Assembly (NCBI GenBank): GCA_948439405.1
Contig: CAOJNB010000006.1
Span: 1-64,000 of the forward strand
Direction: 5' to 3'
Length of the DNA stretch: 64,000 nucleotides
From: an uncultured Coriobacteriaceae bacterium
GTDB taxonomy: Bacteria > Actinomycetota > Coriobacteriia > Coriobacteriales > Atopobiaceae
Below the pieces are notes generated by a model, which had not been told where the DNA came from, did not search any database, and saw only the letters and a program-made list of their open reading frames with translations. Position numbers and translations under genes: made by a program. Positions within the stretch are counted from its first letter, which is position 1. Every line of letters starts with the position of its first letter. Positions 27,274-32,860 of this stretch are shown here, in pieces.

Positions 27274-30200
27274 ATGCAGACCTTGGGTCCGAGAGGGACG
27301 CGCGGGAGGAGACGCGGGCGGACGGGACGACGGCGGCGCGGGACGGCGACCGCCCGCGCGGCGCTGGTCGCTCTCGCGCTGCTCGTCGCGGCGGCGACGC
27401 TGTGGCGTGCCCCCGCGAGCGCGCGGGCGGCGACGGTCGGGTTCGCGAACGGGGGCACGGTCGAGGTCGGCGCCGACGGCACGGTCACGGGCACGTGCAC
27501 CATCAGCGGGAGCTGGTACGACCCGGCGACGGGCGTGGGCGACCTGGGCGAGGTGACGATGCCGGACGGCAGCGTCCTGCCGGCCACCTGCTACGAGGCG
27601 CACGCGGGCGTCCCGGACGCGCTCTCCTACGGCGTGCCGCGCGACGGCACCTACCCCTTCACGGCGACGCGGGACGACGACGGCAGCTACGCCGTCCTCA
27701 TCCGCTCGCAGGACGCCGTTCCGATCGAGCCCTACGACCCGGACGGCCCGGTGCAGCACGGCTGGTCGTGGGGCTGGAGGCCGCGCCTCGAGGGCACGCT
27801 CTCGCTGCGCAAGGCGAGCGCGGACGCGGCCCTCACGGACGGCAACGCGGCCTACTCGCTCGAGGGGGCCGTCTACGGCGTCTACGCCGACGCGGCCTGC
27901 ACGGAGCTCGTCGCCACGATGGAGACCGGCGCGGACGGGACCGCGCGCTCCGGTTCGCTCGCGGCGGGCGACTACCACGTGCGCGAGGTCGAGGCGAGCG
28001 CCGGCTACGAGGTGGACCCGACCGTCCGGCGGGCGACCGTGGTCGGGGGCGGGAACACGGAGCTGTCCGCCTCCGCGCTTCCCGAGGAGCCCCTGCACGA
28101 CGCGGCCGGCCTGGCCGTGCAGAAGGTCGACGCGGAGACCGGCGAGGCGCTCCCGCAGGGCGCGGCCTCCCTCGAGGGGGCCGAGTACACCTACCGCTTC
28201 TTCGCGGGCGACCGCTACGAGGAGGACGACGAGGGGCGCGTCGTCGACGCGGACGGGGAGGTCGTCCTCGAGGCGGACGGCTCCTACGCGGGCGAGGAGC
28301 GGGCCGAGCGGACGTGGGTCGTGCGCACGGACGCCGACGGGCGGGCGGAGCTGGACGCCGAGCATCTCGTCGCCGAGGCGAGCGACGAGCTCTACGAGCA
28401 CGACGGCTCCCCCACCCTGCCGCTCGGCACGGTCGTGGTCCGCGAGACGAGGGCACCCGAGGGCTACCTCGTCTCCGACGAGACCTACGTCGTCCGCGTG
28501 ACGCAGGACGGAGGGGAGGCGGCGACCGAGGGCGACGTCGCCGTCGTGGACGGCAACCGCTTCGCGGGCGACGACGGGGGCACCCAGGAGGACCGCGTGG
28601 CGCGCGGCGACGTCGAGCTGACGAAGGTGGGCAGCCTCGACCAGGAGCGCCTCGGCGGCGTCCCCTTCATGGTCACCTCGCAGGCCACGGGCGAGGCCCA
28701 CGTGGTCGTGACCGACGAAAACGGCTACCTGTCCACCGCGGCCGCATGGAACGAGCACACCCGGGACACGAACGCCAACGACGAGGCGGTCTCGGGCGGG
28801 CCGGGCGCCTGGGAGGTCGACGAGGACGCCCTCGACGGGCGCGCGGGGGTGTGGTTCGGCGCGGGCGAGCCCGACGACGGGCTCGGCGCCCTCCCCTACG
28901 ACACCTACGTCTTCGAGGAGCTCCCCGTCTCGGCGAACGAGGGCCGCACCCTCGTCACCTTCCGGCTGACGGTGCGCCGCGACGCCCACGTCGTCGACGC
29001 GGGCACGGTGGACGACGCCTACCTCTTCATGCAGACCTGGGCCACGGCCGGCGATGGCACCAAGACGGTCGGCGTCGGGGAGCGCGCCGAGATCGTGGAC
29101 GCGGTCTCCTACGAGGGCCTCGTGCCGGGCGAGGACTACGTGCTGCACGGCACGCTCGTGGACGCCGAGACCGGCGAGGAGCTGCTCGACGCCGAGGGCG
29201 AGCCCTGCGTCTCCGAGACCGCGTTCACGTGCGCGCAGGTCTCCGGCGAGGCGACCGTGACCTTCGAGCTGGACACGACCGGGTTCGCGGGACGGCGCAT
29301 CGTCGTCTTCGAGGAGCTCCTCGAGGCGGACGGGACCCCCGTCGAGGAGCACGCCGACCCCGACGACGAGGGGCAGACGGTGACCGTGGCCGAGCCCGCG
29401 CTCGACTCCTCGGCCGCCGGCGAGGCGGGAGACGTCGTCCGATGGGACCCCGAGGCCACCGTCACGGACTCCGTCTCCTACGAGGGGCTGAACCCCGGCG
29501 AGGCCTACGTGCTCTCCGGCAGGCTCGTCGACGCGGAGACGGGCGAGTCCGTGCTCGACGCCGAGGGCGAGCCCGTCGAGGCGGAGACGCGCCTCGTCCC
29601 GCAGGCCTCCTCCGGCACGGCCGAGGTGCCCTTCGCCCTCGACACGACCGCGCTCGCCGGCAGGAGGGTCGTGGTCTACGAGCGCCTTACGACCGAGGAG
29701 GGGACCGAGGTCGCCGCGCACGAGGACCTCGGCGACGAGGCCCAGACGGTCGATGTCGCGACCCCCGCGATCGACACGTCGCTCACCGACGCCACCGACG
29801 GCGACCGGGAGGCCCTCCCCTCCGCCGAGACGGTCCTCGTCGACGCCGTCAGCTACTCGGGGCTCACCCCGGGCCGCGAGTACCGCATCCGGGGGATCCT
29901 GATGGACCAGGCCTCGGGCGAGCCCCTGCTCGCGGGCGACCGCGAGGTCACGGCGGAGGTCGCGTTCGTGCCGAACGAGGCCGAGGGGCAGGTCGAGGTG
30001 CGCTTCGCCTTCGACGCCGGCGGCGTCCCCGAGGGCACGAACGCGGTGGCCTTCGAGACGCTGCTCTACGGCGAGGACGCGGCGGCGACCCACACGGACC
30101 TGGGCGACATGGACCAGACGGTCGAGGTCACCTCCGCCCCGGACGGCACGGTGCTCGACCAGACGGGCATGCCGATGGGCCCCGTGGCCGCCTGCGTCGG

Positions 30201-30279
30201 AGGGACCGGGGCGCTGGGGGCGGCGGTCGCCGCGTGGTCGTTGCGCGGACGGAGGAGGGCTCGCGGGACGGCCCGCTGA
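27274..30279 (+). CDS. SpaA/VaFE-repeat surface protein with LDQTG sorting signal
   Basis: A 1001-residue secreted surface protein. It has an Arg-rich N-terminus and a hydrophobic signal segment (about 28-52) cut near ARAAT. An N-terminal adhesion-type region contains two cysteines (GTCTIS and ATCYEAH). SpaA/Cna_B-type modules lie at about 173-265, 281-410 (ending RETRAPEGYL) and 447-590. Three VaFE repeats follow at about 600-703, 722-827 and 848-950, each opening (D/E)xVSYxGLxPGxxY and closing DxxQTV. The C-terminus is LDQTG, a hydrophobic helix and RGRRRARG, an LPXTG-like wall-anchoring signal. The ATG follows GGGAGGCAGGC. The class B sortase two genes downstream is the obvious partner. 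It is strongly acidic, like other coriobacterial pilins or adhesins. Confidence 0.92.
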   Translation: MQTLGPRGTRGRRRGRTGRRRRGTATARAALVALALLVAAATLWRAPASARAATVGFANGGTVEVGADGTVTGTCTISGSWYDPATGVGDLGEVTMPDGSVLPATCYEAHAGVPDALSYGVPRDGTYPFTATRDDDGSYAVLIRSQDAVPIEPYDPDGPVQHGWSWGWRPRLEGTLSLRKASADAALTDGNAAYSLEGAVYGVYADAACTELVATMETGADGTARSGSLAAGDYHVREVEASAGYEVDPTVRRATVVGGGNTELSASALPEEPLHDAAGLAVQKVDAETGEALPQGAASLEGAEYTYRFFAGDRYEEDDEGRVVDADGEVVLEADGSYAGEERAERTWVVRTDADGRAELDAEHLVAEASDELYEHDGSPTLPLGTVVVRETRAPEGYLVSDETYVVRVTQDGGEAATEGDVAVVDGNRFAGDDGGTQEDRVARGDVELTKVGSLDQERLGGVPFMVTSQATGEAHVVVTDENGYLSTAAAWNEHTRDTNANDEAVSGGPGAWEVDEDALDGRAGVWFGAGEPDDGLGALPYDTYVFEELPVSANEGRTLVTFRLTVRRDAHVVDAGTVDDAYLFMQTWATAGDGTKTVGVGERAEIVDAVSYEGLVPGEDYVLHGTLVDAETGEELLDAEGEPCVSETAFTCAQVSGEATVTFELDTTGFAGRRIVVFEELLEADGTPVEEHADPDDEGQTVTVAEPALDSSAAGEAGDVVRWDPEATVTDSVSYEGLNPGEAYVLSGRLVDAETGESVLDAEGEPVEAETRLVPQASSGTAEVPFALDTTALAGRRVVVYERLTTEEGTEVAAHEDLGDEAQTVDVATPAIDTSLTDATDGDREALPSAETVLVDAVSYSGLTPGREYRIRGILMDQASGEPLLAGDREVTAEVAFVPNEAEGQVEVRFAFDAGGVPEGTNAVAFETLLYGEDAAATHTDLGDMDQTVEVTSAPDGTVLDQTGMPMGPVAACVGGTGALGAAVAAWSLRGRRRARGTAR

Positions 30280-30299
30280 CCCGAAGGACCGACGAGGGC

Positions 30300-30319
30300 G
30301 GGGCCGGCGCGCCGGCCCC
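30300..30319 (+). terminator. Perfect 20-base palindrome after surface-protein gene
   Basis: GGGGCCGGCGCGCCGGCCCC, 20 bases after the stop and just before the next gene's ribosome site. It may end or slow transcription so that the abundant surface protein is made in excess over the sortase genes. Confidence 0.5.
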
Positions 30320-30337
30320 GCCGCGAGGGAGGTGGAC

Positions 30338-30844
30338 ATGGCGCGTGGAAGGGGCGGCAGGGCGTCCGCCGCGGTGGCGAGCCTCGCGCTGGCGGCCCTC
30401 ACGGCCGCGGCGGCGACGGCGTCCCTCGCCGTGCGAGGGGACGCGACGCGAGGGCCCGGGCGGACCTTCGCCGCGGGGTGGGAGGACGCGTTCCACGCGC
30501 ACGCGTGGGAACCCGTCTACGGGACCGTCGAGGTGCCCGCCGCGACGCACGTCGTCCGGCACGGGCCCGAGGTCGGCGTCGAGGTGGCGTCGGAGACCGT
30601 CTGCAACGCCTGCGGGAGAATCGTCACGGGGGCGACGCGGGAGCACGAGGCCGCGACGGGGCATGCGGGCTTCACGGCCGACGTGCCCGTCGAGCGCGAG
30701 GTGGTGCTCGCCGAGGGCTGGGACGAGGTCGTGGCCGACGAGCCCGCGCGCTCCGAGCTCGTCCGCGTCGGGGACAGGTGCGCGTCGTGCGGCGCGGAGC
30801 GTCCCGCGGGCGGAGGTGACGCGGGCGATGCGGGGCAGCCGTAG
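30338..30844 (+). CDS. Secreted Cys-pair (zinc-ribbon-like) protein of sortase locus
   Basis: A 168-residue protein of no family I can name. Residues about 8-35 form a signal peptide or anchor. The mature part opens HAHAWEPVYGTVEVPAATHVV and has two Cys pairs, CNACG and CASCG, about 55 residues apart, with HEAATGHAGF between them. Such a Cys4 or Cys/His arrangement suggests one bound zinc. Similar HTHxWxxVYxTV / CxxCG proteins occur near SpaA pilin and sortase genes of gut actinobacteria (recalled, not searched). The ATG at 30338 follows GAGGGAGG; the gene overlaps the sortase start by 17 bases. It has no C-terminal sorting signal. A chaperone or scaffold role in surface-protein assembly is only a guess. 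Confidence 0.75.
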   Translation: MARGRGGRASAAVASLALAALTAAAATASLAVRGDATRGPGRTFAAGWEDAFHAHAWEPVYGTVEVPAATHVVRHGPEVGVEVASETVCNACGRIVTGATREHEAATGHAGFTADVPVEREVVLAEGWDEVVADEPARSELVRVGDRCASCGAERPAGGGDAGDAGQP

Positions 30845-31568
30845 GCGGGCGCGGCGGGTCGCGCTCGCCCTCGGCGGCATGCTCCTCGCAGGCGCCGTCG
30901 CCCTCGCCGGGCTCTGGGCCGCGTCGGCGGTGCGGGCGGGCGCCTGCGACCCGGACCCGGAGAGGCGCCTCGCGCGCGACGCGTCCCCGGACGTCCCCGC
31001 CGTCGACTGGGAGTGGTGGCTCGCGGCCAACCCCGGCGTCGTCGCCTGGCTGAGCGTGCCGGGCACGGCGGTGAGCCTGCCGGTCGTCCGGGCGCCCGCC
31101 GGCGACCCCGGCTTCTACCTCTCCCACGACGTCTTCGGCACGTGGAACCCGCACGGTGCCGTCTACCTCGACGCCTCCTGCGACGGCATCGACGGCGCGC
31201 CCTGCGTCGTGCTCTTCGGGCACCACAGCTGGGACGGGACCATGCTCGCCCCGCTCGCGGGATACGCGGACGAGGACTGGGCCCGCTCCCACCGCGAGGT
31301 CGTCGTGCAGACGCCGGACGGGAGGACGCGACGCCTCCTCGTGCGCGCCGTCGACGTCGTGCGCGCCGACGAGCCCGTGAAGCGCACGGAGTTCGCGGAC
31401 GAGGCCGACCTGGAGGCGTACTGGCGGGAGCGCTTCGAGGCAGCCGACGTCCGCCTCGAGGAGGCGCCCGCGGAGACGGACCAGCTGTGGTGCCTCGTCA
31501 CCTGCTCCTACACGAGATGGCCGGGAAGCGAGAGGACGATGGTGCTCGCCTGCGAGGACGCGTCGTGA
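30828..31568 (+). CDS. srtB: Class B sortase
   Basis: A 246-residue membrane-anchored transpeptidase. One N-terminal helix (about 9-30) follows an Arg-rich start. The catalytic triad is visible: H132 in LFGHHSWDGTM, C226 in LVTCSY and R236 in SERTMVLA. The order and the insert before the Cys are those of class B sortases, which include some pilin polymerases. Placement directly behind the SpaA/VaFE protein makes that LDQTG protein the likely substrate. I start at the ATG at 30828 (GGAGG 11 bases upstream). An in-frame GTG at 30816 is possible. It overlaps the preceding Cys-pair gene, so the two are co-translated. Confidence 0.92.
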   Translation: MRGSRRRARRVALALGGMLLAGAVALAGLWAASAVRAGACDPDPERRLARDASPDVPAVDWEWWLAANPGVVAWLSVPGTAVSLPVVRAPAGDPGFYLSHDVFGTWNPHGAVYLDASCDGIDGAPCVVLFGHHSWDGTMLAPLAGYADEDWARSHREVVVQTPDGRTRRLLVRAVDVVRADEPVKRTEFADEADLEAYWRERFEAADVRLEEAPAETDQLWCLVTCSYTRWPGSERTMVLACEDAS

Positions 31569-31613: not shown

Positions 31614-32210
31614 GTGATTTGGTTCACATCGGACCTCCACCTCGGGCACGCGAACATCCTCCGGCTCGCCGGGCGTCCCTGGGAGGACGTCGACCGCATG
31701 AACGCCGCGCTCGTCTCCGCGATCAACGCGCGCGTCATGCCCGGCGATACCCTCTACGTGCTCGGCGACTTCTCCTTCAAGCTCAAGCGCTGGCGCGCGC
31801 TGGAGCTGAGGGGGCGCATCTGGTGCCGCGACGTGCGGCTCGTGCCCGGCAACCACGACAAGAACTGGGCGGACCCCGAGGTGGCCGGTGCCTTCGCAGT
31901 GGAGCCCGAGCTCGTGCGTCTCCATGCCGGAGACCGGCCGCTCGTGCTGTGCCACTACCCGCTCATGGACTGGCCCTCGCTCCGCCACGGCGCCATCCAC
32001 CTGCACGGGCACCTGCACGCCCCGGCCTCCTACAACGAGTGGAACCGCAGGCAGGGGCTGCTGCGCTACGACGTCGGCGTGGACGCGAACGGCTACGCGC
32101 CCGTGTCGCTCGACGAGGTCCTCGCCTACTTCGCGGGCGTCGAGCACCGGCGCCGCGTGACGCGCGACGTGTGGGAGGCCTTCCTCCCGCCCGGGCGGGA
32201 GGAGGCGTGA
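31614..32210 (+). CDS. Calcineurin-like metallophosphoesterase
   Basis: A 198-residue metallophosphoesterase with all metal-binding motifs: TSDLHLGH (D-x-H), LGDFSF (GD), PGNHDK (GNH), VLCHYP and HGHLHAP. It resembles the small phage-like or cytoplasmic phosphoesterase branch (MJ0936/YfcE relatives). There is no signal peptide, so it acts in the cytoplasm; the substrate is unknown. The GTG at 31614 has GGAGGCGGGC upstream. Its stop overlaps the next gene's GTG by four bases, coupling it to a secreted DUF1287 protein. Confidence 0.9.
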   Translation: MIWFTSDLHLGHANILRLAGRPWEDVDRMNAALVSAINARVMPGDTLYVLGDFSFKLKRWRALELRGRIWCRDVRLVPGNHDKNWADPEVAGAFAVEPELVRLHAGDRPLVLCHYPLMDWPSLRHGAIHLHGHLHAPASYNEWNRRQGLLRYDVGVDANGYAPVSLDEVLAYFAGVEHRRRVTRDVWEAFLPPGREEA

Positions 32211-32860
32211 GGCGGCGGGCCGCCGTGGTCGCCTGCGCCCTGCTGGCGGCGGCGCTCGCCTGCGGGGCCGCCCTCGTGGGCGGCGGCATGCTGTGCGTCA
32301 CCTCCGCCGCGCGGCCCGAGGACCGCTGGGAGGGCGCGTCGCCCGCCCCCGGCAACGAGGCGATGCTCGGCGGCGCCCTCGACTACGTCGCGACCCGGCC
32401 GCACTACCGCAGCGCCTACTACGCCGGGGGATGGCCCGACGACGGCTGCGGCACCTGCGCGGACGTGGTCGCCCATGCGATGCTGGCGGCGGGCTACGAC
32501 CTCCCCGCGCTCATGGCGGAGGACGTCGAGGCCGCCCCAGAGGCCTATCCGGGCGTCGACGCGCCCGATCCCGCCATCGACTGGCGCCGCACCGCGAACC
32601 AGCAGGCGTGGCTCGACCGCCACGCGCGGCGCCTGCCCACGGGACTCGGGGACCCCTCCGCGTGGCGGGGAGGCGACGTCGTGGCCTTCGACGCGACGGG
32701 CGACGGGGTCGCCGACCACGTGGGAATCGTCTCGGACCGCCGCGGCGCCGGGGGCGTCCCCTACCTCGTCCACCACGAGGGTCCCTTCCAGCTGCGCTAC
32801 GAGGAGGACGTCCTCGGCGCGCGGGCGAACGAGGTCTGCGGGCACTGGCGGCTGGCCTAG
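32207..32860 (+). CDS. DUF1287 (YijF-like) secreted protein
   Basis: A 217-residue exported protein: signal segment about 5-32, then a DUF1287 domain. Family signatures are DGCGTCADVVAHAMLAAGYD, the PDPAIDWRRTANQ stretch, WRGGDVVAFD, and DHVGIVSDRRG ending with GHWRLA. The Cys-His layout resembles NlpC/P60-type papain-fold hydrolases, so a cell-wall or peptide-amide hydrolase is plausible, but no activity is established for this family. The GTG overlaps the phosphoesterase stop (GTGA). It converges on the adenine deaminase gene with 12 bases between the stops. Confidence 0.85.
   Translation: MRRRAAVVACALLAAALACGAALVGGGMLCVTSAARPEDRWEGASPAPGNEAMLGGALDYVATRPHYRSAYYAGGWPDDGCGTCADVVAHAMLAAGYDLPALMAEDVEAAPEAYPGVDAPDPAIDWRRTANQQAWLDRHARRLPTGLGDPSAWRGGDVVAFDATGDGVADHVGIVSDRRGAGGVPYLVHHEGPFQLRYEEDVLGARANEVCGHWRLA

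Follow-up and report, generated by a model that had tools for sequence, protein, structure and literature searches.

Spy0129 is reportedly the class B sortase of the FCT pilus loci of Streptococcus pyogenes. In the FCT pilus, the accessory protein SipA is essential for polymerisation (PMC4049620). An unexplained accessory gene in a sortase locus is a known pattern, and a locus of this kind was analysed here in an uncultured Coriobacteriaceae bacterium (assembly GCA_948439405.1, placed by GTDB in the Atopobiaceae). The window, i.e., the whole stretch of 64,000 nucleotides that was analysed, covers positions 1 to 64,000 of the forward strand of contig CAOJNB010000006.1. It holds three genes in a tight run on the forward strand, encoding a VaFE adhesin (27274-30279, P0001), a predicted exported protein with two cysteine pairs (30338-30844, P0002, the Cys-pair protein) and a class B sortase (30828-31568, P0003), which confirms the three-gene surface module of the initial annotation. 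As in the FCT loci (cpa-sipA-fctA-srtC-fctB), a class B sortase gene is clustered with surface substrates and a non-substrate accessory gene. The accessory belongs here to a different, unnamed family found across gut Coriobacteriia, and its short members lie consistently behind VaFE genes.

A family of putatively exported domains

Direct searches with P0002 (168 amino acids) were nearly empty in Pfam, NCBIfam, PHROGs, PDB sequences, plasmids, viral contigs and, by BLAST, 60 relatives. A consensus of gut proteins with HTHxW, CNxCG and CSGCGATK, used as a lead, matched P0002 with an E-value of 1.6e-14 and 39% identity, as well as proteins of several other genomes. The resulting family profile (A1) found matches in 48 of the 299 sampled genomes of the order, and among 296 genomes sampled across the whole phylum the matches were restricted to this order. 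A scan of named genomes gave matches in Adlercreutzia murintestinalis, Enterorhabdus sp. P55, an uncultured Enterorhabdus, another Eggerthellaceae metagenome-assembled genome (MAG) and an Erysipelotrichaceae MAG; in the class of the latter only 2 of 296 genomes matched, the family being rare in Bacillota. Searches of the relatives against phages and plasmids gave no match, and a single viral contig was matched by a long relative (L139). No literature on the family or on exported C2H2 domains was found among open-licence papers. Judged by its sequence, P0002 is a member of a putatively exported, undescribed domain family, which sequence searches can recover and which has no named counterpart. 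The statement of the initial annotation that the protein fits no family holds for named families, since neither Pfam nor NCBIfam matched, but the protein is not an orphan.

In long members, the domain is the C-terminal end of a membrane protein or lipoprotein that contains low-complexity linkers, and short members such as P0002 have little beyond the domain after an N-terminal hydrophobic segment or lipobox. In P0002 this segment comprises residues 14-32 (30377-30433, mean Kyte-Doolittle value 1.81). Because of it and of the lipobox relatives, export and membrane tethering are predicted for the protein. None of the short members carries a sorting signal, so the Cys-pair protein was rejected as a sortase substrate.

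Two further forms of occurrence of the domain were observed. A lipoprotein-like form without the terminal ligands described below (CNxCGxDxTGNxxAHxKAHM...GHW) recurs about 3-20 kb from pairs of VaFE and class B sortase (SrtB) genes (L115, L117, L120, L126, L129, L133). In an Actinomycetota genome (L127, 7547-8419) and a Bacillota genome (L188, 1814-2746), RLYNPxxGEHxYT repeats are followed by the same zinc-ligand domain.

Metal ligands and predicted fold

P0002 contains exactly four cysteines (89, 92, 148 and 151), located in the motifs CNACG and CASCG, and the sequence HAHAW at residues 53-57. Eight ligand positions are conserved per domain: an HxH motif, a C2H2 finger (CxxC-x10-HxxxxxH) and a C-terminal CxxC. 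Short members keep [HC]-x-H near the start, C-N-x-C with a histidine ten residues on and another five further, and a terminal C-x-x-C-G. In P0002 the corresponding positions are H53 and H55 (30494-30502), the central finger C89-x2-C92-x10-H103-x5-H109 (30602-30664) and C148-x2-C151 (30779-30790), where the first and third sets would be the two halves of one terminal metal site. CxH replaces HxH in G224 and G201, and this exchange of the first histidine for cysteine is as expected for a putative metal ligand.

The pairing of the two ends is suggested by their joint variation. In 37 domain copies, the N-terminal [HC]xH and the C-terminal CxxC were both present in 22 and both absent in 14, with one exception in a truncated frame (Fisher p 2e-9, a value that ignores kinship, as the 14 copies without both may reflect one or two losses). 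Three further copies kept both terminal motifs and lost the central finger; a fourth one, outside the count, seemed fingerless only because the pattern missed its finger. Since the terminal motifs are kept or lost together and the finger is lost separately, the termini appear to form one unit and the centre another.

Although P0002 itself has no Pfam C2H2 match, L127, a relative from the same family as the window, passes the cut-offs of PF13912 (34.1 bits, cut-off 25) and PF00096 (27.5 bits, cut-off 25.2), and the family profile matches C2H2 structures in the PDB. The residues from CxxC to HxxxxxH thus seem to fit a C2H2 finger, and the zinc binding put forward in the initial annotation is likely on the basis of conserved ligands and profile matches.

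An AlphaFold model of residues 45-168, built with an alignment of 7 sequences, has a mean pLDDT of 88.8. It runs through three strands, the first CxxC, a helix with the histidine pair, three more strands and the second CxxC, with the ligands at strand ends. In the model, the three strands on each side would place both ends of the domain at one pole, opposite the finger, in agreement with the proposed ligand pairing. With Foldseek, the model had no counterpart in PDB or BFVD at an E-value below 0.001.

Association with VaFE adhesin genes

The eight short members (window, G122, G188, G319, G295, G309, G224 and G201) come from five genera and two families, and in every case the gene is the next one downstream of a VaFE gene, in the same orientation. 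In the window, the Cys-pair gene starts 58 bases past the VaFE stop. What follows is less constant. Five of the eight runs include srtB, immediately after the Cys-pair gene in the window, G295, G309 and G224, and as the last gene in G201, where VaFE and Cys-pair are followed first by a second surface protein ending in YDKTG and then by SrtB. In the two Enterorhabdus genomes G188 and G319, the Cys-pair gene is followed by genes for a SipW-like signal peptidase and a camelysin/TasA-like protein (L136, 8779-10663; L137, 1547-3474), and in G122 by neither SrtB nor a SipW-like peptidase. The copy in the Erysipelotrichaceae genome adjoins, by eye, a large gene for a SpaA-like repeat surface protein.

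Distances to VaFE were also counted over the whole family. Of 55 domain copies, 8 had VaFE repeats at a distance of at most 1 kb and 17 at a distance of at most 7 kb, compared with 0.085 and 0.40 expected by random placement; copies from the same genus are not independent, so that Poisson tails overstate this proximity. In the reverse direction, a short member was found at only 8 of 50 VaFE loci. The firm link is therefore that of the Cys-pair gene to the VaFE gene, and neither the reverse nor a link to the sortase.

This result modifies two points of the initial annotation. It had suggested checking whether homologues always neighbour srtB and SpaA/VaFE genes, which for the short members holds throughout for VaFE and only in part for srtB, and it had considered that homologues away from sortase genes would speak against the idea: the wider family is indeed found there (41 of the 55 copies without SrtB within 7 kb on the contig), but the short subfamily always adjoins VaFE. 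The joint role that had been deduced from the overlap with the sortase gene is retained, but with the adhesin in place of the sortase as the partner.

The VaFE adhesin and the class B sortase

P0001 (1001 amino acids) has a signal peptide-like N-terminus, a SpaA domain (PF17802) and three VaFE (T-Q ester bond) repeats at 29029-30075 (PF18202, 275 bits). With 299.8 bits against NF033903 (cut-off 24), it is classified as a VaFE repeat surface-anchored protein. It ends in a C-terminal sorting signal composed of VLDQTG, with the LDQTG motif at 30154-30168, a hydrophobic stretch and the basic tail RGRRRAR. The initial annotation had regarded LDQTG in place of LPXTG as an oddity, which was not borne out. 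SrtB-linked VaFE proteins of the fetched loci end in YPKTG, YDKTG, LDKTG, LEQTG, LAQTG, FGKTG, FSKTG, LPRTG and similar motifs, and many of them follow [YLF]x[KQ]TG. Because LDQTG is within this spread, it is ordinary for the group even though it departs from LPXTG, and it was discarded as a special signal. P0001 is the single predicted sortase substrate of the window, and there are two predicted substrates with YDKTG in L110.

The N-terminal domain of P0001 (27424-27840), which has no Pfam match, is 42% identical to that of the matching trio in G224 (L109), whose host is from a different family. Such identity across families points to a probable shared module, and the domain may be an undescribed adhesin head.

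P0003 (246 amino acids) passed the cut-off of PF04203 (29.9 bits, cut-off 26.6), and with 68.8 bits against TIGR03064 it is under the equivalog cut-off of 153.75, so it was filed as class B-like. Its best PDB relatives are SrtB structures and its catalytic set is complete, with GHH at 131-133 (H132/H133), TCSY with C226 and SERT with R236. The class assigned in the initial annotation is thus upheld, with the correction that the genome holds a second class B sortase (G000:C3:36965-37672). VaFE-adjacent SrtBs scored 35-109 bits on TIGR03064, and most other SrtBs 100-203; by these sequence scores, the VaFE-linked enzymes are divergent. A maximum-likelihood tree of 53 SrtBs places the five linked to a Cys-pair gene within one supported set of 11 (95/94). 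This set includes other surface-protein-linked SrtBs and excludes the second SrtB of the genome, and the five enzymes do not form a clade of their own.

The neighbours of the window locus are of chromosomal type (helicase, phosphoesterase, DUF1287, adenine-deaminase-like and MurT/GatD-like genes, assigned partly by eye). The exported DUF1287 protein (PF06940, 124 bits) is encoded at 32207-32857, two genes past the sortase. Elsewhere, two VaFE-SrtB pairs (L033, 4998-9146; L036, 6134-9676) lie within apparent transfer modules of conjugative elements, with NlpC/P60 and channel-like neighbours, which suggests sortase-anchored adhesins as cargo of mating elements.

Proposed role and alternative explanations

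The locus would be a small surface-display operon, probably co-transcribed, in which a VaFE adhesin or pilin-like protein and its own class B sortase are accompanied by a membrane-tethered accessory encoded between them. The accessory would fold outside the membrane as a six-stranded beta domain with two C2H2 metal sites, presumably occupied by zinc: the finger site in the middle of the domain (C89, C92, H103, H109) and the terminal site joining its ends (H53, H55, C148, C151). It would act on or with the VaFE protein while this is held at the membrane, as a chaperone or a base piece, before or during the cut by SrtB at LDQTG that would link the VaFE protein to the wall or to the next subunit. 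As the short members are always encoded behind the adhesin gene, and given the precedent of SipA, P0002 is best read as an assembly partner of the VaFE adhesin, a zinc-braced accessory, but since this role is deduced from gene order it is held tentatively, at a little under even confidence. The wider proposal is more doubtful, namely that a C2H2-finger domain closed by a second zinc site serves outside the cell as a dedicated assembly partner of VaFE adhesins or pili built by divergent class B sortases in gut Coriobacteriia.

Several observations weigh against an assembly role. The Cys-pair gene is missing from most SrtB-linked VaFE loci, one of them (L050) in the same genus, and hence is not generally needed for display. 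On their contigs, 38 of the 55 domain copies have no VaFE gene within 7 kb, and the domain is the tail of many membrane proteins; this wide spread also fits a general binding module. The absence of a sortase behind the gene in G122, and the SipW-like peptidase found there in the two Enterorhabdus genomes, count in the same direction. Members of one genus are not independent, and gene order alone is no proof of joint function. With regard to the fold, the model has a pTM of just 0.53 from an alignment 7 rows deep, and the single-sequence fold of the distant Erysipelotrichaceae relative reached a pLDDT of 31.

The main rival sees the domain as a general exported, zinc-braced module that binds a polymer of the wall, a ligand of the host or some other protein; the short protein would then be one more membrane-held surface protein, sharing the operon but taking no part in VaFE assembly. 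The same domain ends many different membrane proteins and lipoproteins of the order, mostly with no VaFE or SrtB gene nearby, it follows the RLYNPxxGEHxYT repeats in G098 and in the Bacillota genome G873 as binding modules do, and a Big_2-domain protein of G122 ends in a related CNCGAVK tail. However, a free module should also turn up at other loci, and the short stand-alone form is restricted to the site behind VaFE in all eight cases; this explanation is considered rather unlikely. A membrane-held SrtB partner that controls substrate choice or activity, the sortase regulator of the initial annotation, would account for the overlap of the Cys-pair and sortase genes (17 bases in the window, 8 in A. 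murintestinalis) and for the grouping of the linked SrtBs in one supported set. Nevertheless, no SrtB gene follows in three of the eight loci with a short member, the same set also contains SrtBs that lack a Cys-pair gene, and the link with the adhesin rather than the sortase makes a regulator less likely than an adhesin partner; such a function is considered improbable.

The remaining two explanations start from the cysteines and the metal. Two predicted zinc sites in an exported protein could sense or buffer extracellular zinc, making the operon a zinc-responsive colonisation unit, but the sites look structural, with four ligands each, and no zinc transporter or Zur gene was noticed beside the locus (Pfam on two downstream neighbours), so that this is judged quite improbable. 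Redox chemistry on the adhesin or the sortase by a thiol-disulfide protein is the least probable. The presence of two CxxC pairs in an exported protein would allow it, but the pairs are zinc-knuckle-like, conserved histidines stand at finger spacing, cysteine and histidine exchange at one position, and the residues vary as ligand sets. In addition, C2H2 profiles were matched and thioredoxin-like ones were not, and a thioredoxin-like redox protein was rejected on these grounds.

The family offers a direct way to test whether exported domains braced by zinc help to build ester-bond adhesins. What is new is the family itself, together with the logic of its ligands and its fixed position behind VaFE genes. 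The signature HxHxW, CNxC-x10-H-x5-H and CxxCG can be used directly as a profile, and the family is an entry to many other membrane proteins with the same tail.

Comparison with known systems

SipA has a signal-peptidase fold, whereas P0002 has a predicted metal-ligand beta fold with no PDB match; polymerisation is described for the FCT pilus, and the window locus is known from its genes. P0002 was dismissed as a SipA-type accessory since it has no Pfam S26 match and its AlphaFold model is a beta/finger domain. The other VaFE-SrtB pairs of Coriobacteriia, some of them in apparent conjugative elements (L033, L036), share with the window the kind of adhesin, the same or neighbouring SrtB clades, the adjacency of the genes and the [YLF]x[KQ]TG ends, but they lack the Cys-pair gene, which the window locus has among its chromosomal-type neighbours. 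With C2H2 zinc fingers (PF00096, PF13912), the domain shares the central CxxC-x10-12-H-x3-5-H with a helix; in P0002 it would differ in lying outside the membrane, between two beta meanders, with a second site at the termini. Finally, the SipW/TasA-type loci of Enterorhabdus (L136, L137) contain the same couple of VaFE and Cys-pair genes, and have a SipW-like peptidase and a camelysin/TasA-like protein where the window has SrtB.

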